DNA from: Isotricha intestinalis
Taxonomy: Eukaryota > Ciliophora > Litostomatea > Vestibuliferida > Isotrichidae
Reading direction: 5' to 3'
DNA length: 32,680 nucleotides
NCBI GenBank assembly: GCA_023807065.1
Contig: JAJJLU010003765.1
Span: 1-32,680, forward strand
Under the pieces are notes generated by a model, which was not told where the DNA came from, ran no database searches, and worked only from the letters and a program-made list of their open reading frames with translations. Shown one piece after another: positions 1,283 to 26,208 of this stretch (position 1 is its first letter; the number at the start of each line of letters is the position of its first letter). The position numbers were made by a program, and so were the translations under genes.

Positions 1283-3154
1283 TTATCGTAACATATGAAT
1301 TTCCTTGCAATTTTTCTATAAATATATTAAAAAAAGTTATTTACTCCCTTTTTTTATTAAAAAATTACAGCCTGATTGATTTTAATTTAATAATTTTTAC
1401 TCCCTTTTAATTAACAATTTTATTACACACTAAAATATAAATCTTTAATTACTTTCTAAAATTATAATTAAATTACAGGCTAATTTTAACTAATAATTAC
1501 ACACTAATAGGATATATTTTTTCTTTACAGGCTTAAATTAAAATAAAAAATTAACAATCTAAAATATAAATTTTTGCATTACATCCTATATATTAAAATA
1601 ATTTTACGTCCTAAAATCATATAAATAAGTTTACTTTCTATTATTTATTAGAATAAATTAAACCAACTAAATTTTCAATAATTAATTAACAATCTATAAA
1701 AATTATTCAAATGTTAACTGTCTATAATTATAAATTTTTCAAACTTCCTTTTTAAAGTTAGTTATTTGTTTACTTTCTAATAATTTTATATTCATAAATA
1801 CAGGCTATAATTCATTAAAGTCATTTATACTTTCTTTTTTAATTATAAAAATAATTAATTACAGTCTATATATTTAAAAATTTTTGAACATCCTATTAAA
1901 TCAATGATTATTTTATTTACTTTCTAATAATTTTTTATTTGTTTTCATACTGGCTGTTTTAATTAAAAAACAAATTACTCCCTATTATTAATTAATTTTT
2001 TACTGGCTTAAATGATTAGTGATTATCTAACCAACTGATTAAATATATAATTATATTTACAGGCTAAAATAAAATTATATAATATACTCCCTAAAATATT
2101 ATTATTTTAAATTAAACATCCTATTTTCTTAACAATATTTTACTTTCTTAAATAAATTAAATAAATGATACCCACTAAAGGTTAAAAATTATATTTTATA
2201 TTACTTTCTATAATTTATGAAAGTTAAAATCTTATATACTAAACATTTAAAAAATGAAATTTTACTGTCTGTTATTGTAAAATAATTGGATTTTTACATA
2301 CTAAAATAATAATTATTATTTTATATACAAACTATTTTCTATTGAAGATTATACATCCCACTAAAGAATACAATAAATAAATTTATTTACTAACTAAAAT
2401 TCTTTAGAAAATATCTTATTGTCTAAATAAATGTTAAAAATTACTCCTGTCTAAAAATTTAATATTATTATTTAACCCACTAAATCATAAATTTTTTTTT
2501 TTACTGTCTTAATTATTAATAAACCATATTTACAGGCTTTAATATTATTTATTGTTATATTCAACTTCCTGAAATATAAAGTTCTTATATTAACTTTCTT
2601 ATATATTCAAATATAATTATTTACCCACTATATTTAATAAATATATATACTGGCTATATTTTATTTGAATTTATTGACTTCCTAATAATTATAAATAAAG
2701 TTAATACATTCTAAAATTCAATAAATTCATTAATTTACTTCCTATTATTTAATTTCAATAAGTTAACTCCCTAAAATAATAATATTAATATTAAACTTTC
2801 TAAAAAAAAATAAATATATTTTTACCCACTAAATTGATAAGAAAATATATTAACAAACTATTTAATTAATAAATCTTATACTTGCTATTAAATTAGAATA
2901 TCATTATCATACATTCTTTAAAAATAAATAATTTTATTTACTCCCTTAATAATTATTTTAATTTAAAGTAACACACTAAATAATCAAAAAAAATTCACTT
3001 TCTGAAATATAAAGAAAATAATACTATCTGAGAAGAATTTATATAAAAAATACGCACTTAAATAATTTTAAAAAGATACTCTAAAAATAAAAAAAATATT
3101 ACCTAATTTCCCATTCTATCAAAAATAAATAAGTAATAGATAAATACTATCCAT
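1283..3154 (-). CDS. 80-residue zinc-ribbon-like protein encoded by 65 exons, 61 of them one or two codons long
   Basis: Reading the minus strand and removing every GT...AG segment leaves one continuous frame. Exon 1 (3154-3148, ATGGATA), exon 2 (3115-3103, 13 nt) and exon 3 (3080, a single A) spell MDKWEIR. Then 61 microexons (59 of 3 nt, two of 6 nt) add 63 codons with no stop. The last exon (1315-1283) adds ten residues and a TAA stop. The product starts MDKWEIRCIKCGNQFWKG and ends IPCPKCGAGKNCKEIHMLR. Cys8/Cys11 and Cys64/Cys67 are two CxxCG knuckles, suggesting one zinc-ribbon or treble-clef site; Cys73 and His77 are nearby. The middle is rich in Trp, Lys, Glu and Pro. Introns are 21-32 nt and make up about 87% of the gene. 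The paired knuckles and clean start and stop argue strongly against chance. I do not recognise the family. It is divergent from the EF-hand gene, with 309 nt between starts. Confidence 0.9.
1345..3056 (-). other. Array of 61 single- or double-codon exons
   Basis: Lowest coordinates of the 3-nt exons in minus-strand order: 3054, 3025, 2999, 2973, 2942, 2913, 2882, 2855, 2826, 2797, 2768, 2739, 2708, 2679, 2651, 2625, 2595, 2566, 2534, 2505, 2477, then 6-nt 2445-2450, then 2420, 2391, then 6-nt 2355-2360, then 2329, 2298, 2266, 2236, 2205, 2172, 2144, 2118, 2088, 2061, 2032, 2004, 1979, 1951, 1921, 1890, 1863, 1831, 1802, 1774, 1745, 1719, 1691, 1664, 1635, 1608, 1583, 1556, 1529, 1501, 1477, 1453, 1427, 1401, 1369, 1345. 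Each is preceded by AG and, except 2420 and 2236, followed by GT. Spacing is 24-36 nt throughout, with no gap that could hide a missed exon. All introns here are phase 0. Intron sequences differ from one another, so this is not a tandem DNA repeat. Confidence 0.85.
3080..3154 (-). other. 5' exons of the microexon gene, including a one-nucleotide exon
   Basis: Exon 1 is 3154-3148 (7 nt). Intron 1 is 3147-3116 (32 nt, GTATTT...GATAG). Exon 2 is 3115-3103 (AATGGGAAATTAG). Intron 2 is 3102-3081 (22 nt, GTAATA...TTTTAG). Exon 3 is the single base 3080 (A), followed by intron 3 at 3079-3057 (23 nt, GTATCT...TTTAAG). These introns are in phases 1, 2 and 0. Only this splicing gives ATG GAT AAA TGG GAA ATT AGA and leads into the codon-by-codon array in frame. 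Without exon 3 the downstream codons would lose register. Confidence 0.8.
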
Positions 3155-3463
3155 TGTTAAATTAAATAATTAATAATATATAATAAAAATTAAAATTTAA
3201 TATTATTTGAAATTCAAAAACCATGAAATATAAAAATTCTTAAATGATAGTAATTATTTTTATTAATAAAGTCAAATCTAATATAAATTAATTTTAATAT
3301 AATTTCTTTATTTTACATTTTCTTTTTTTTAACTCATGTTTTAAATATATTAAAGTTTTTATTGAATAATTTGAGAAAAATTTGTATGATTCTTTTGCAA
3401 AAATCATCTAAAAATATTTAAAATAAAAATATTTAATAAAATATATAAATGAATTAAAAATAA
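3155..3463. promoter_or_regulatory. Divergent intergenic region between the microexon gene and the EF-hand gene
   Basis: These 309 nt separate the ATG of the minus-strand microexon gene from the ATG of the plus-strand EF-hand gene, so both promoters should lie here or overlap it. The sequence is almost wholly A and T. I see no distinct element that I can name. Confidence 0.4.
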
Positions 3464-5455
3464 ATGTTACCTGGAAGATGTCAATATTTACTAGGAAAAT
3501 TTTTATTAGATATTTCTCAATATGAAAGACAAATAGAAAATTTAAGAGAATTAATAATTCAGAATTTAGAATTTAATTTTTCAAATGTTTATAAATATTT
3601 CGCATATGAAAATAAAAATTATATAGATGCAAAAAGTATATTTAAATTTTTAAAAAAAAATGGAATAAATTCAACATTTAATGAAATTCAATTTATAATA
3701 TTTTTTTATGACGATAATGAAGATTCAGTATTATCATTTAATGAATTAATGAATTTAATATTACCAGATAAAAATTATTCGTTAAAAAATTTAGTTGAAC
3801 CAGTAACAAAATGTTTTATATATGATAAAAAAGTAAAACTTCCTTTAAGTGTAGAATATTCATTAATATCTTTTTTTGAAAAAGAATTAGAATTAATAAG
3901 ATTAATAATAGATTTTAGAAATTATATTAAAACTTATCCTGGAATTGACGTTCATGATATTTTTCATGGAATTAAAGGATTTGATGATGGAATTACTATG
4001 AATAATTTAAATACTTTTTTAAAGAAAAATTATTTTAAATATACTGAAGAAGATTTAAGAAGTATTATCAAGAGATTAGATCTTCATAGAGATTCTATTA
4101 TTGATTTTTATGAATTTCATGAATTTTTCTGCTTTCCTGTTATTAGATGTAAATGTTGTGTTCCATGTAATAAATGTAAAGATAATTATTATGGAAATAA
4201 AAAAATAAATAATTATTTATCTTCTTCTGATTCGGATTTAAAGTCTCAAAATAATTTTATTAATAATGTTAATAATTTTTATACTGTTGTTGGGAAAGTT
4301 TCTAATAATTTAAATTTAAGGATTTCTCCTCAAAGAAATTATCCTCCTCAAAAAGATAATATTTATAATGATAATAATTCTATAGATTCTAATCAAAGAA
4401 ATTCAAATTTAGAAAATTTTGAAATTAATAATTATAATATTCAAAATAATAATATGAATAATAATTCTAACAATAAAATAATGAATAATATGAATAATAA
4501 TCATAACAATAATAATATGAATAATGATATGAATAATTATAATAACAATATGAATTATAATAAATATAATTATTCCAACAATAATATGGAAAGTAATTAT
4601 AATGATATGAATAATAATATGAATACTAATATATACAATAATTATTATAATAAAATAAATGATTATAATGTAAATAATAATTTTCAACAAAATAATACTA
4701 TTAATAATAATAAACCTTATGATCCTTGTGAATTTATATATGAAATGTATTGTAATAACCCTAATATTGAAGAAAATGAAATATTAAAAGATGGAAGAAG
4801 AAATTTTTTATTATATTTAGATGAAGTAATAGGTATAGAAAAAAAAATAGAAAATTCAAAAATAGAATTATCATGTCAAAATGATTTTAATATAGAAGAT
4901 GCTTTTAGATTATTTGAATATAAAGGAAGAGGAATTTTAACAGAAGAAGATTTAAAAATAGGATTAAATTTATTAAATTTATCAACATCTGATAAAGATA
5001 TATATTTAATATTAAAAAGAGGAGATATTCAAAATAATAATTATTTAACATATGAAGATTTTTTTGATTTAATGACTCCATTTCAAAAAGATTATAGAGA
5101 AGATATTGAAAAAAGAAAACCTTTAAATAAAAAAACAAAATATAATAAAGCAGAAATTTTTTCTAATTATACTATTAAATTAATTCAAAATTTATTTAGA
5201 TTAATTATTATTTCTGAATTAAAAATACAGAATTTAAAATTTTCTCTTATTGATACTAAAAGAAATTTACAAATTTTTTTTAATGAAATTGATAGATTTA
5301 AAAAAGGTTCTATTAATTGTTTAGATTTACAACATTATTTAAAAGTTAATGATTATAATTTTACTGAACAAGAATGTGCTTTAATTTTTATTAGAATGGA
5401 TAGAAATAGAGATGGAAAATTAGAGTTATTTGAAATTGAAAGAGAAATAAGTTAA
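3464..5455 (+). CDS. EF-hand calcium-binding protein with central Asn-rich region
   Basis: The protein has 663 residues. A degenerate EF-loop lies at residues 83-94 (DDNEDSVLSFNE) and another EF-like segment reads LDLHRDSIIDFYEF near residue 206. After a Cys cluster (RCKCCVPCNKCK) comes a long Asn/Met/Tyr-rich region (about residues 300-420). More EF-like segments follow (RGDIQNNNYLTYEDFF), and a textbook loop sits at the C-terminus, residues 646-657 (DRNRDGKLELFE, with acidic residues at positions 1, 5 and 12). Multi-EF-hand proteins of this kind are calcium sensors; the partner is unknown. The Cys-rich patch could bind zinc or be lipid-modified, which is inference. The ATG is the first in the open frame. 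No introns are needed, unlike the divergent neighbour. Confidence 0.85.
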   Translation: MLPGRCQYLLGKFLLDISQYERQIENLRELIIQNLEFNFSNVYKYFAYENKNYIDAKSIFKFLKKNGINSTFNEIQFIIFFYDDNEDSVLSFNELMNLILPDKNYSLKNLVEPVTKCFIYDKKVKLPLSVEYSLISFFEKELELIRLIIDFRNYIKTYPGIDVHDIFHGIKGFDDGITMNNLNTFLKKNYFKYTEEDLRSIIKRLDLHRDSIIDFYEFHEFFCFPVIRCKCCVPCNKCKDNYYGNKKINNYLSSSDSDLKSQNNFINNVNNFYTVVGKVSNNLNLRISPQRNYPPQKDNIYNDNNSIDSNQRNSNLENFEINNYNIQNNNMNNNSNNKIMNNMNNNHNNNNMNNDMNNYNNNMNYNKYNYSNNNMESNYNDMNNNMNTNIYNNYYNKINDYNVNNNFQQNNTINNNKPYDPCEFIYEMYCNNPNIEENEILKDGRRNFLLYLDEVIGIEKKIENSKIELSCQNDFNIEDAFRLFEYKGRGILTEEDLKIGLNLLNLSTSDKDIYLILKRGDIQNNNYLTYEDFFDLMTPFQKDYREDIEKRKPLNKKTKYNKAEIFSNYTIKLIQNLFRLIIISELKIQNLKFSLIDTKRNLQIFFNEIDRFKKGSINCLDLQHYLKVNDYNFTEQECALIFIRMDRNRDGKLELFEIEREIS

Positions 5456-7583: not shown

Positions 7584-8858
7584 TTAAAAATACCAGTTCA
7601 TATCTTTAACATTTTTAGTATTAAAATTAGATAAATTTAAAGAAATTAATTTAGAACAATGAAAGAACATTCTACTCATATTTTTAACATTATTAGTATT
7701 AAAATTGAGTAAATCTAAAGAAGTTAAAGAAGAACAAACATTGAACATCCTACTCATATTTTCAACATTATTAGTATTAAAATTAGATAAATCCAAAGAA
7801 GTTAAACAAGAACAATAATAGAACATACCACTCATATCTTTAACATTATGAGTATTAAAATTAGATAAATTTAAAGAAGTTAAAGAAGAACAAAAAGAGA
7901 ACATTCCACTCATATTATTAACATTATTAGTATTAAAATTAGATAAATTTAAAGATGTTAAAGAAGAACAATTATAGAACATATAACTCATATCTTTTAC
8001 ATTAATAGTATTAAAATTAGATAAATTTAAAGAAATTAAAGAAGAACATTCAGAGAACATAAAATTAATATTATTTAAAGAATTTATACATTTAATTTTA
8101 ATTATATTTTTTCCTTCTAATTCATATTTATAACAAAACTCTATTTTATTTTCATTTAAATATATTTCACAATTATCTTTTATTTCTTTTTCATTTTCAT
8201 TCCCATTTTCATTAAACCAATTATTTCTTATAACTTCTTCATAACTATTTAATATTTGAATATTACCTTTATTTTTAATATTATATTCACATATTATATA
8301 ATTATCATGGTTATTTTTCACTTTATTATTATTGTTTAAGAATTCTTTGTGGTTTTCACTTTTTATTTTATATATATCTTCTTCTATTAAATCTTCTTTG
8401 TTTGATTCATTGTTTTCATTTATATTTTCATTTATTAATTTTTCTGATTCTTCATCATTTTTTTTTAATTTTTCCATTTTTTCTGAATCTTTTTCTTTAA
8501 TTCTTTTTTTTAATTCTTCATTTTCTTTATTTAACTTTATAATGTTTTCACGTAACATTAAAGTTCTGTTTTGTAAATTTAATTCAATATTAAAGGAAAT
8601 TAAAATAAATTTTAAATTCAAATTTTCTTCTTTAATTTCTATTTGATTCGAATCAATTAATCCAATAATAAATTCAATTATTTCTTGTGTTGAAGATATG
8701 GGTAATTCCTTAAATTGTTCATAATTAAAATTAGATTCATAAATTATATTGTTTGTTTCAATAATTATATTAATTAAATCAAAAACAGATGATAATTTAA
8801 TAAAATATTGATGATATTGTTTTTCAATTGATATATTATCTAATATCCTTAATGACAT
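7584..8858 (-). CDS. BspA-like (DUF285) leucine-rich repeat protein
   Basis: The protein has 424 residues. An N-terminal helical region (1-95) leads into a coiled coil rich in Lys and Glu (about 100-170). A bridging domain (about 185-265, IICEYNIKNKGNIQILNSYEEV and CEIYLNENKIEFCYKYEL) is typical of protist proteins that precede these repeats. Six 26-residue BspA-type repeats follow (for example NVKDMSYMFYNCSSLTSLNL), with DNA units of 78 bp. BspA repeats mediate protein-protein or surface contacts in bacteria and protists. There is no signal peptide, so an intracellular role is likely. The last repeat stops abruptly at DMNWYF. The next frame over continues for about 20 coding-like codons (GIFNNINKNCELFCND), so the C-terminus may be frameshifted and truncated. 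Confidence 0.8.
   Translation of the reverse strand: MSLRILDNISIEKQYHQYFIKLSSVFDLINIIIETNNIIYESNFNYEQFKELPISSTQEIIEFIIGLIDSNQIEIKEENLNLKFILISFNIELNLQNRTLMLRENIIKLNKENEELKKRIKEKDSEKMEKLKKNDEESEKLINENINENNESNKEDLIEEDIYKIKSENHKEFLNNNNKVKNNHDNYIICEYNIKNKGNIQILNSYEEVIRNNWFNENGNENEKEIKDNCEIYLNENKIEFCYKYELEGKNIIKIKCINSLNNINFMFSECSSLISLNLSNFNTINVKDMSYMFYNCSSLTSLNLSNFNTNNVNNMSGMFSFCSSLTSLNLSNFNTHNVKDMSGMFYYCSCLTSLDLSNFNTNNVENMSRMFNVCSSLTSLDLLNFNTNNVKNMSRMFFHCSKLISLNLSNFNTKNVKDMNWYF
7600..8070 (-). repeat. Six 78-bp tandem coding repeats (BspA units)
   Basis: Cysteines in SECSSL, YNCSSL, SFCSSL, YYCSCL, NVCSSL and FHCSKL recur every 26 residues. The DNA units are nearly identical in places, so unequal exchange can change copy number. 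Confidence 0.75.
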
Positions 8859-10491: not shown

Positions 10492-11496
10492 TCAATGTTT
10501 AAATTTAATAACAATACAACTCATATTATCACATCCAATTCCCATTTCATTCATTTTATCTTTAGCTAATATACTATCCATCATATCTTCTATAATAGAA
10601 CTAATATTTTTATATTTTTTTTTTTCAAATCCATTTTTAACATAATCACAAGCTTGTTGATTACTTAAACAATCCCAAATACCATCACATCCAATAATAA
10701 TAAAATCACAATTATCATCGATTTTTTCAATATTAATATCAGGAAAAGCTGAAATAATTTGTTCTTGAGGAGTTAAATTTTTATTTTGTTTATATTCTAA
10801 ATCACCTAAACTTCTACTTAAATTTAAATTTCCTTTAATTCTTCCTTCACTGACCCATCCATTTGCTTTATATATTCTATTTTTTTCAATTGATAAATCA
10901 GGTTTATGATCTAAAGACATTTGATATGCTTTTCCTTTTTTACATAATACTACTCTTGAATCTCCTGAGTTTGCAAAATATATTTTTTTATTTATTTCAT
11001 CTATTATACATATACATGATGTACATCCTGTCATTTGAGCTATATCACAATTTTCTGATGATTTTGGATCAAAAAATTTTTTATATTCATTTTCTTCATT
11101 TGATATCTTATTCTTCTTATCTTGCTCTTCATCTTCTTTTTTTGATTTCTTTGAATATTCTTTTAATTCTTTTTTACCATTTTCTGTCATTAATAATTCA
11201 TCTATTTTTAAAAATGTCTCTTCTAATGATTTTTTTATATTATCTTGGTTCGTGTTTTTATTCTTTAAAAATTCTTTCACAAAATGATTCTTTGCAAATT
11301 GACTTACTTCTTTTCCACCATGTCCATCAAACACTCCAAATATATCAAATTTATTGTTGTTGTTTAATGATGTTATATGTGCATCTTCCATTCTATAACG
11401 CCATCCTTGCATTGCTGAAGCTCCGTATTGAATGTATGAATTTTCATCATCTGAACTTTCTTTTTCTTTATTTGGAGTACTTAGGAAATCACCCAT
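10492..11496 (-). CDS. PP2C-type Ser/Thr protein phosphatase
   Basis: The protein has 334 residues from ATG 11496-11494. A frame 12 codons longer starts MFIQKKSKKKKK, but the run of Lys is the poly-T tract before the gene. MGDFLSTPN also fits an N-myristoylated start, as in many ciliate PP2Cs. Family motifs in order: GASAMQGWRYRMEDAH (25-40), VFDGHGGKEV (55-64, metal-binding Asp57 and Gly58), TGCTSCICI, ANSGDSRVVL, LDHKPD, LSRSLGDLEYK, FIIIGCDGIWDCLSNQ and GIGCDNMSCIVIKF. The metal-coordinating aspartates are all present, so the enzyme should be active. A Lys/Glu-rich insert sits in the middle (about residues 115-145). PP2Cs are metal-dependent monomeric phosphatases; the substrate is unknown. 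Confidence 0.95.
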   Translation of the reverse strand: MGDFLSTPNKEKESSDDENSYIQYGASAMQGWRYRMEDAHITSLNNNNKFDIFGVFDGHGGKEVSQFAKNHFVKEFLKNKNTNQDNIKKSLEETFLKIDELLMTENGKKELKEYSKKSKKEDEEQDKKNKISNEENEYKKFFDPKSSENCDIAQMTGCTSCICIIDEINKKIYFANSGDSRVVLCKKGKAYQMSLDHKPDLSIEKNRIYKANGWVSEGRIKGNLNLSRSLGDLEYKQNKNLTPQEQIISAFPDINIEKIDDNCDFIIIGCDGIWDCLSNQQACDYVKNGFEKKKYKNISSIIEDMMDSILAKDKMNEMGIGCDNMSCIVIKFKH

Positions 11497-25416: not shown

Positions 25417-26208
25417 TTATTGATTACTATCTTTTGTAAATTTTTTTTCAACTTCTTCAGCTTTTTTTATAATATTTTCATCTAAATGAATTTTTTCTTG
25501 ATTTTCTTTTTCAATTTGTCTTTTTTTTTTAGCTTTTTCTAATCTTTTTTTTAAACGTTCATCTCTTTCTTTTTTTTCTTCTTCTGAATATTTAGTATTA
25601 ACTTTTTTAAATTGAGTTTCAATTTTTATTGGTTCAGATATTTTTTCTTTATTATCATTATCATCTATTTTTTTTAAAATATCTTTTACTTTTGATTCTA
25701 TTGACATTGACATTAAAGTATTTACTGTTTTTGATTTATTTTCATTATTATTATTTAAATTTTCTAAATTCATTTCTTCTAAATTTTCTTTTTTTTCTAA
25801 ATTCATTTCTTCTAAATTTTCTTTTTTTTCTAAATTCATTTCTTCTTTATTTTCTTTTTTTTCTAAATTATATTCTTCTTTATTTTCTTTTTTTTCTAAA
25901 TTCATTTCTTCTTTATTTTCTTTTTTTTCTTTTTTTTTCTTAAAGTTATCTTCTGTTAATTTTAAATTTTCTTGAATTACATCATCATCTTCATTTATTT
26001 TTTGTGAAATTGAAGATTCATTTTTTTTTGATAAAAATATATTTTCTGTTTTTTCTTCTTCTTTTGATATATTTGAAGAAAGATCATTAAATTCAATTTT
26101 TCTTTTAATTTCATCATTTATATCTTTTTTTATATCAGGCAATTCAGTTTTTATTGTTTCTTCGTTTGGTTTTCCTTTAAAAAATTTACAACAAAATATA
26201 CTTCCCAT
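25417..26208 (-). CDS. Putatively N-myristoylated and palmitoylated repeat protein
   Basis: The protein has 263 residues and begins MGSIFCCKFFKGKPNEET. Gly2, Ser at position 3, and Cys6-Cys7 form a typical dual-acylation signal for membrane anchoring. The middle has five tandem 11-residue units (NLEKKENKEEM and NLEKKENLEEM), followed by a Lys/Glu-rich coiled coil. The C-terminal part (YSEEEKKERDERLKKRLEKA) is helical and basic. There is no enzymatic domain. Location at the cytoplasmic face of a membrane is inferred; role unknown. It resembles in style ciliate pellicle and coiled-coil scaffold proteins. Confidence 0.75.
   Translation of the reverse strand: MGSIFCCKFFKGKPNEETIKTELPDIKKDINDEIKRKIEFNDLSSNISKEEEKTENIFLSKKNESSISQKINEDDDVIQENLKLTEDNFKKKKEKKENKEEMNLEKKENKEEYNLEKKENKEEMNLEKKENLEEMNLEKKENLEEMNLENLNNNNENKSKTVNTLMSMSIESKVKDILKKIDDNDNKEKISEPIKIETQFKKVNTKYSEEEKKERDERLKKRLEKAKKKRQIEKENQEKIHLDENIIKKAEEVEKKFTKDSNQ
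25765..25930 (-). repeat. Tandem 33-bp coding repeats
   Basis: About five units of 33 bp encode NLEKKEN(K/L)EEM. The DNA units are almost identical, so copy number is probably variable. Confidence 0.8.

Follow-up and report, generated by a model that had tools for sequence, protein, structure and literature searches.

A predicted 65-exon gene with 59 three-nucleotide exons and its place in a genome-wide class of exon arrays

The locus and the predicted gene

The minus strand of contig JAJJLU010003765.1 (assembly GCA_023807065.1; positions 1 to 32,680, the whole stretch of DNA analysed, are here called the window) carries, from position 3154 to 1283, what is very probably a gene of 65 exons, 59 of them three nucleotides (nt) long, predicted to be spliced into an 80-residue, zinc-ribbon-like protein with CxxC and CPxC cysteine pairs; it belongs to a genome-wide class of such arrays. 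A preliminary description of this DNA, made from its letters, had proposed 65 exons for 80 residues on this strand. We analysed the locus with a chain finder that requires AG-NNN-GT units separated by 15–40 nt, and with a Viterbi gene model that was trained on the chain-finder introns and on the codon usage of ordinary window genes and that takes the ATG at 3154 as its start. The Viterbi model reproduced the proposed structure, with a coding sequence of 243 nt and the predicted product MDKWEIRCIKCGNQFWKGENEPWKEPTWTGTLWDFYTYKWKDGPLPGPKDTKPKETILKDDIPCPKCGAGKNCKEIHMLR followed by the stop.

Apart from the 59 three-nucleotide exons, the model contains two that measure 6 nt and four single ones with lengths of 1, 7, 13 and 33 nt; three-nucleotide exons account for 177 of the 243 coding nucleotides and 59 of the 65 exons. 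The 64 introns span 21–32 nt, the range given in the preliminary description, begin with GT (62 of 64) or AT (2 of 64), and end with AG. That description had counted 59 triplets flanked by GT plus two by AT; the model has 57 three-nucleotide exons with GT donors and two with AT, 59 in all. The description's count of 63 array codons is obtained once the two 6-nt exons are included. Between two unbroken runs of three-nucleotide exons (Table 1) lies an irregular stretch that opens with a 6-nt exon, ACAGGA (2450–2445), followed by the three-nucleotide exons ACA and TTA, and continues with the second 6-nt exon, TGGGAT (2360–2355), followed by TTT, TAT, ACA and TAT.

Chance periodicity was rejected as a source of the array. 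The longest strict AG-NNN-GT chain in the window comprises 32 units. When the region was shuffled 1000 times with dinucleotide content preserved, no chain exceeded 3 units (mean 1.2), and the longest chain is 1 on the opposite strand and on the remaining minus strand of the window. From composition, the chance that none of the 53 strict triplets is a stop is about 0.0016, which is weaker evidence when taken alone. The genetic code bears on this count. Under the standard code (table 1), ordinary window genes form long clean frames, and 118 of the 119 genome places resembling the PP2C gene of the window (80-residue query) contain no internal stop; these genes read cleanly, and stops are therefore most likely real stops. 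We rejected the ciliate code in which TAA and TAG encode Gln (table 6), under which many overlapping frames appear, because ordinary genes are clean under the standard code.

Table 1. Features of the predicted gene and of one neighbouring gene in the window
Feature	Positions	Strand	Basis
Exon 1, 7 nt, ATGGATA with start codon	3148..3154	-	Viterbi model and direct reading of sequence
Exon 2, 13 nt, AATGGGAAATTAG: end of Lys, WEI, first two bases of Arg	3103..3115	-	Viterbi model
Exon 3, one nucleotide (A), completes Arg codon	3080..3080	-	Viterbi model and paralogues
First unbroken run, 21 three-nucleotide exons: C I K C G N Q F W K G E N E P W K E P T W	2477..3056	-	Chain finder and Viterbi model
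Irregular stretch	2236..2450	-	Viterbi model
Intron with ATAAG start (AT-AG), or else lost donor skipping one residue	2394..2419	-	Viterbi model and genome pattern search
Second intron with ATAAG start (AT-AG)	2208..2235	-	Viterbi model and genome pattern search
Second unbroken run, 32 three-nucleotide exons, ending D D I P C P K C G A G	1345..2207	-	Chain finder and Viterbi model
Last exon, 33 nt, KNCKEIHMLR and stop TAA	1283..1315	-	Viterbi model
Ordinary gene with EF-hand pairs, one long frame, standard code, not part of array	3464..5455	+	Open frame and Pfam scan

Paralogues and the joined codons

We searched the 57.3-megabase genome, and a reversed control, for a Pro exon followed by a neighbouring Cys exon. 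This pattern matched 13 times in the genome and never in the control. The loci compared were ten newly fetched ones, the window and two fetched earlier. Arrays are present at 12 of the 13 Pro-Cys loci, the window included, the one on contig C1621 not being convincing. When joined, the triplets define a single protein family, WE(L/I)(R/K)-CxxC-xYQFWKG-xxEP ... ICxDDxPCPxCG, whose members differ chiefly in the loop that separates one Cys pair from the other; a homologue of the W-E end of exon 2 is also present in paralogues. Some members are as short as the window gene, among them L014, which carries MSDKWELKC. In two members with the WELRC motif, L022 and L013, the array follows a B-box-like stretch (22.9 and 20.3 bits, cut-off 24.1), and at L021 it follows an ART-like stretch that is likewise below threshold (15.1, cut-off 22.3). 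At L034, the only locus with a B-box above the Pfam cut-off, a kinase domain and the B-box, both above their cut-offs, stand in front of an array whose product lacks the WELRC motif.

Conservation of the joined codons was measured in the 11 members with an unbroken run starting C-x-x-C (the selection rule), over the first 11 exons, a block outside which the Pro-Cys pair of the genome search falls. With the Cys columns left out, exon identity was 0.620 in register and 0.277–0.338 when the members were shifted by one to four exons; with the Cys columns kept, the corresponding values were 0.673 and 0.258–0.358. Introns at the same positions were 0.670 identical across members, as against 0.658 for random pairs. 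Exons are thus alike in register while introns are at the random level, which indicates that similarity has faded beyond measure in the DNA separating the triplets and has been kept in the triplets themselves. Codon usage varies within this conservation: the Gly eleven exons into the run, which was not selected for, is present in 11 of 11 members as GGA, GGG or GGT, and the first Cys, itself part of the selection rule, is TGT in six and TGC in five. This comparison strongly supports the earlier proposal that the array is a real spliced gene, as far as sequence can speak to it.

The single-nucleotide exon predicted before the first Cys is also a recurrent feature. In the 12 members tested first, an AG-N-GT site stands at intron-like spacing before that Cys in every case; N is A in ten and G in two, and Arg or Lys results in frame each time. 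When the inner stretch was shuffled, such a site arose in 5% of trials on average (0.25% to 40% by locus). Among three further members, one (L018) has the one-nucleotide exon followed by a canonical Cys exon, which brings the overall count to 13 of 15 members tested.

The description of the product as carrying a zinc-ribbon pair holds as a resemblance, and every Pfam zinc-ribbon score lies below its cut-off. The best score of the window product is 16 bits (cut-offs 25 and 30.8), and that of L014 is 17.5 (cut-off 34.4). Profile searches against solved structures gave weak matches to ribosomal protein L37Ae (best E 0.00076, 21 profile positions), to one U-actitoxin (0.052) and to rubredoxins (0.36 and above). 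We read these as resemblance around CPxC and do not assign the product to any of the three families. The window product may bind zinc through its cysteines. It is a stand-alone version of a domain that in other members lies behind B-box-like or other stretches, and as such would most likely act as a small binding or adaptor protein.

Arrays across the genome and their introns

The preliminary description concerned one gene in which nearly all codons are separate exons. Genome-wide searches show that it belongs to a large class, in which the constant is the three-nucleotide exon and not the codon. A strict pattern (TAGNNNGTAA, 14–25 nt, TAGNNNGTAA) has 629 matches in the genome and 35 in the reversed control. 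Split by first exon, the GAA sub-pattern has 56 matches (2 reversed) and the TGG/TGT sub-pattern 65 (0 reversed); together these touch 45 contigs, some by one match. Dividing the excess of 594 matches by 0.30 or 0.159, the number of strict matches per three-nucleotide exon in the fetched loci, we estimate that the genome holds roughly 2,000–3,700 three-nucleotide exons, a rough figure; the ratio of 0.30 comes from loci chosen in part by the same strict pattern.

In 37 loci, the window included, runs of at least four exons of equal length comprised 1242 units of 3 nt (longest run 86), 8 units of 1 nt and none of 2 nt or of 4–15 nt; the loci were picked with three-nucleotide patterns, and other sizes may occur elsewhere. 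A stop-free frame exists in 60 of the 61 arrays of at least eight units, the exception being the 86-unit chain of L041. In a second, protease-like family (L009, L010, L024 and L030), the open frame of the triplets is a shifted one, every codon being split after its second base, which shows that the array unit is three nucleotides and not the codon. Products of this family end in a Cys-rich tail, with motifs such as YCPKC, RKCSKC, CCNKC and CQHC, and at L030, the member scanned, a trypsin-like peptidase stretch precedes the array (Trypsin_2 22 bits, cut-off 27.6). Other arrays encode quite different sequences: that of L036 specifies a Cys-rich protein, MSEKYCYKCGGELKK...CDKCNVGF...CSKC, and those of L027 and L041 specify charged (in L041 highly charged), helix-like sequence. 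The longest strict chain, of 86 three-nucleotide exons, is that of L041 (C1849:9500-13300), whose introns are diverged. Across 405 array introns, most begin with GTAA or GTAT and end with TAG or AAG.

Comparison of introns within arrays separates the window from a younger group. Introns of the window gene are about 0.64 alike, the same as shuffled introns. In 17 of the 61 arrays, by contrast, intron identity reaches 0.82–0.94; exon identity is 0.30–0.61 in 16 of these and 0.82 in one (L039). The product of L036 is non-repetitive, yet a single 27-mer, closely copied, makes up the majority of its introns. At L043 (C2033:1-2200, positions 170–386), seven adjacent units share perfectly identical 28-nt introns, between which stand the triplets TGT, TAT, GCA, ATA, AGA, AGA and GAA. 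Among 207 pairs of identical introns, the flanking exons were identical in 17% and 15%, against a background of 10%, and in most arrays the two exons flanking an intron resemble each other no more than other pairs of exons do; this same comparison revealed no 3-nt target-site duplication in most arrays. One intron family is common to L025 (C174:1-4000), L027, L036 and L039, with cross-locus identity of 0.85–0.88. The product of L036 aligns with neither that of L027 nor that of L039; L025, which looks decayed, was left out of the product comparison.

Identical introns thus lie between mostly different exons, from which it appears that introns copy independently of exons, in an introner-like manner. 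Either introner-like insertion or gene conversion between introns could produce the pattern. For most young arrays we rejected an origin solely by tandem duplication of exon–intron units, since identical introns flank mostly different exons. Block duplication does occur, as at L037 (C826:1000-3200), where 12 three-nucleotide exons (DSWVKDLGDEE..) are repeated. The introns of the window gene are no more similar than background and the joined protein is conserved, so this array is likely old.

Several features bear on the identity of the host. Two contigs with arrays, C18 and C21, end in CCCCAAT-type repeats 2–3 kb from the arrays, and CCCCAAT telomeres have been reported for Litostomatea (PMC10978948, PMC11316547). 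Taken together, these telomeres, the standard code, a G+C content of about 16% in the window and the scarcity of introns in the ordinary genes sampled point to the macronucleus of a litostome ciliate; the telomeres fit the guess of a ciliate made in the preliminary description. At the C18 end (L011, bases 1–60), the telomere units shift from CCCCAAT to CCCCAAA/CCCCAAAA next to the chromosome body. Ribosomal DNA is located on contig C1. A family search for ribosomal protein L3 (PF00297) gave no match in the genome, all 14 control genomes being positive; the gene is missing, split by introns, or missed by this first look.

Elsewhere in the window, the minus strand encodes a PP2C-type phosphatase (10492–11496), an 80-residue piece of which matches 119 genome places (E up to 10), the mark of a large family. 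On the same strand lie a protein ending in repeats of the type FxxCSSLTSLNLSNFNTNNVxxM (7584–8858), which we take to be like BspA-type leucine-rich repeats, and a protein with tandem KKENKEEMNLE repeats (25417–26208).

Splicing, rival explanations and known systems

We interpret the 64 introns of the window gene as probably removed by ordinary spliceosomal splicing. Recognition would act on every intron singly (intron definition), and an exon of three nucleotides, or even of one, would then need no exon recognition. Since nearly all array exons are of 3 nt (occasionally 6 or 9), the gain or loss of one exon–intron unit would add or remove one residue without a frameshift, and this safety is likely the reason why the three-nucleotide exon size persists. 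The young arrays suggest that arrays may arise or be renewed by introner-like copying of introns and partly by tandem duplication of blocks. We offer tentatively a wider scenario, in which the introns are the copying unit: families of about 27–33 nt would spread through coding sequence, spaced three nucleotides apart, and become uniform inside each array. The encoded domain would so become a series of one-residue modules open to gain, loss or exchange with the frame intact. Arrays of this kind would diversify B-box-like, kinase and protease-like proteins in their C-terminal loops, residue by residue, and exon skipping may contribute as well.

Several observations weigh against the interpretation of the arrays as spliced genes. 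Retained singly, 44 of the 64 window introns would introduce an in-frame stop, and a per-intron efficiency of 0.99 would leave a fraction of 0.53 full-length over 64 introns; very high efficiency is required, and removal in the window gene would have to be correspondingly efficient. The pairwise ratio of nonsynonymous to synonymous differences (pN/pS) in the start block is 0.92, a value we judge uninformative because changes are saturated, as are the introns at the same places. Outside this genome, no homologue was found in the other collections searched. Two members, L022 and L042, have no one-nucleotide exon with a canonical Cys exon. The chain of L041 contains a stop in every frame, the best frame having one, at the second unit. 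An intron starting with ATAAG next to a GT unit was matched 33 times in the genome and 29 times in the reversed control, which is no enrichment in number; of the 33 genome matches, which include both introns of the window gene, 32 fall on contigs to which the listed matches of the other patterns assign arrays. Such introns are either used or skip one residue, and either outcome keeps the frame in a three-nucleotide array. In the sampled genes without arrays, ordinary introns amounted to five needing removal, 50 of 55 model introns being rejected as in-frame artefacts; ordinary genes give no independent showing of a tiny-intron habit, and we did not use this survey as support. Some arrays, finally, look decayed: the second array of L043 (about 960–2050) has many lost donors, and that of L025 (about 640–1170) has near-identical introns and has lost several donors and acceptors.

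Of the alternatives, the one that survives best accepts splicing and makes it combinatorial, any three-nucleotide exon being skippable without a frameshift so that each gene would yield many related proteins. All array exons of the window gene are multiples of three except the leading one-nucleotide exon, paralogues vary mostly in the loop between the Cys pairs, and schistosome micro-exon genes offer a precedent for variable proteins made from short exons (PMC10526429). The order of the YQFWKG block is conserved, however, and needs faithful inclusion there, and we consider such use of the arrays unlikely.

Less probable still is the possibility that the segments are internal eliminated sequences, cut from DNA when the macronucleus forms, with the assembly representing the germline form. 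Ciliates do remove very short DNA segments, which speaks for this possibility. We rejected it because the array contigs C18 and C21 carry telomere repeats, because the segments are bounded by GT and AG in the manner of introns, and because the assembly holds no joined copy of the domain: a protein search and a search for contiguous YQFWKG codons each found none, and the positive control, an 80-residue query, found itself and 118 other places. The finding that, in most arrays, exons flanking an intron resemble each other no more closely than other exons do also stands against DNA elimination. We give equally little credence to the notion of minisatellite-like repeats, with a period of about 30 bp, sitting in genes that are dead or untranscribed, their codons being relics. 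The young arrays are indeed nearly perfect repeats of about 30 bp, and L025 and L043 look decayed; old arrays such as that of the window, however, have lost measurable intron similarity and yet their joined codons keep a shared protein, and the one-nucleotide exon is kept in most members. Ribosomes jump over segments in mitochondrial bypassing elements, and the short, regularly spaced segments here recall such elements, but their GT...AG ends are intron signals and we consider bypassing very improbable.

Spliced three-nucleotide exon arrays, if confirmed by transcripts, would mean that splicing can assemble a protein almost codon by codon, far beyond known isolated microexons. Intron recognition alone would then suffice, the exon being too short to separate two splice sites, and the question would be forced of how the spliceosome acts with an acceptor and the next donor three nucleotides, or one, apart. 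The young arrays, with identical introns between different codons, would offer the unusual chance to watch introns being gained, and would open this old question to direct testing. Gene finders that do not allow three-nucleotide exons would miss the whole class.

The available parts of the openly licensed literature on single-codon or three-nucleotide exons, tandem microexons and ciliate microexons describe no such arrays; they give isolated microexons and micro-exon genes with long introns. In Schistosoma mansoni, micro-exon genes have short exons of 3–81 bp and introns of up to 5 kbp (PMC10526429). Like them, the window gene has most of its coding sequence in very short exons; unlike them, with their long introns and varying exon sizes, the arrays described here have introns of about 25 nt and runs of up to 86 three-nucleotide exons. 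The window gene works like a micro-exon gene and is no member of that group, its introns being short. Aphid bicycle genes have also been linked to microexons, and we know of none with single-codon arrays. They form a rapidly evolving effector family identified by gene structure (PMC9168663) and, unlike the arrays here, belong to insects. Splicing of exons of 1 and 3 nt is on record for Arabidopsis APC11 and Drosophila homothorax (PMC4674806, PMC7392893), where they are single exons in ordinary genes, whereas here a predicted one-nucleotide exon is followed by dozens of three-nucleotide exons.

The array introns are similar in length to the ultra-short introns of the ciliates Paramecium and Nyctotherus, which measure around 25 bp (PMC5014332); that paper's main text does not contain the terms microexon, short exons or exon length. 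A survey of introners reports near-identical introns in many genes (PMC9860276), and near-identical introns likewise occur here in unrelated genes (L027 and L039 compared with L036), a likeness that the window's own introns do not show. Unlike introners, the copies in these arrays stand in tandem, one every three nucleotides, and are mostly 27–33 nt long.

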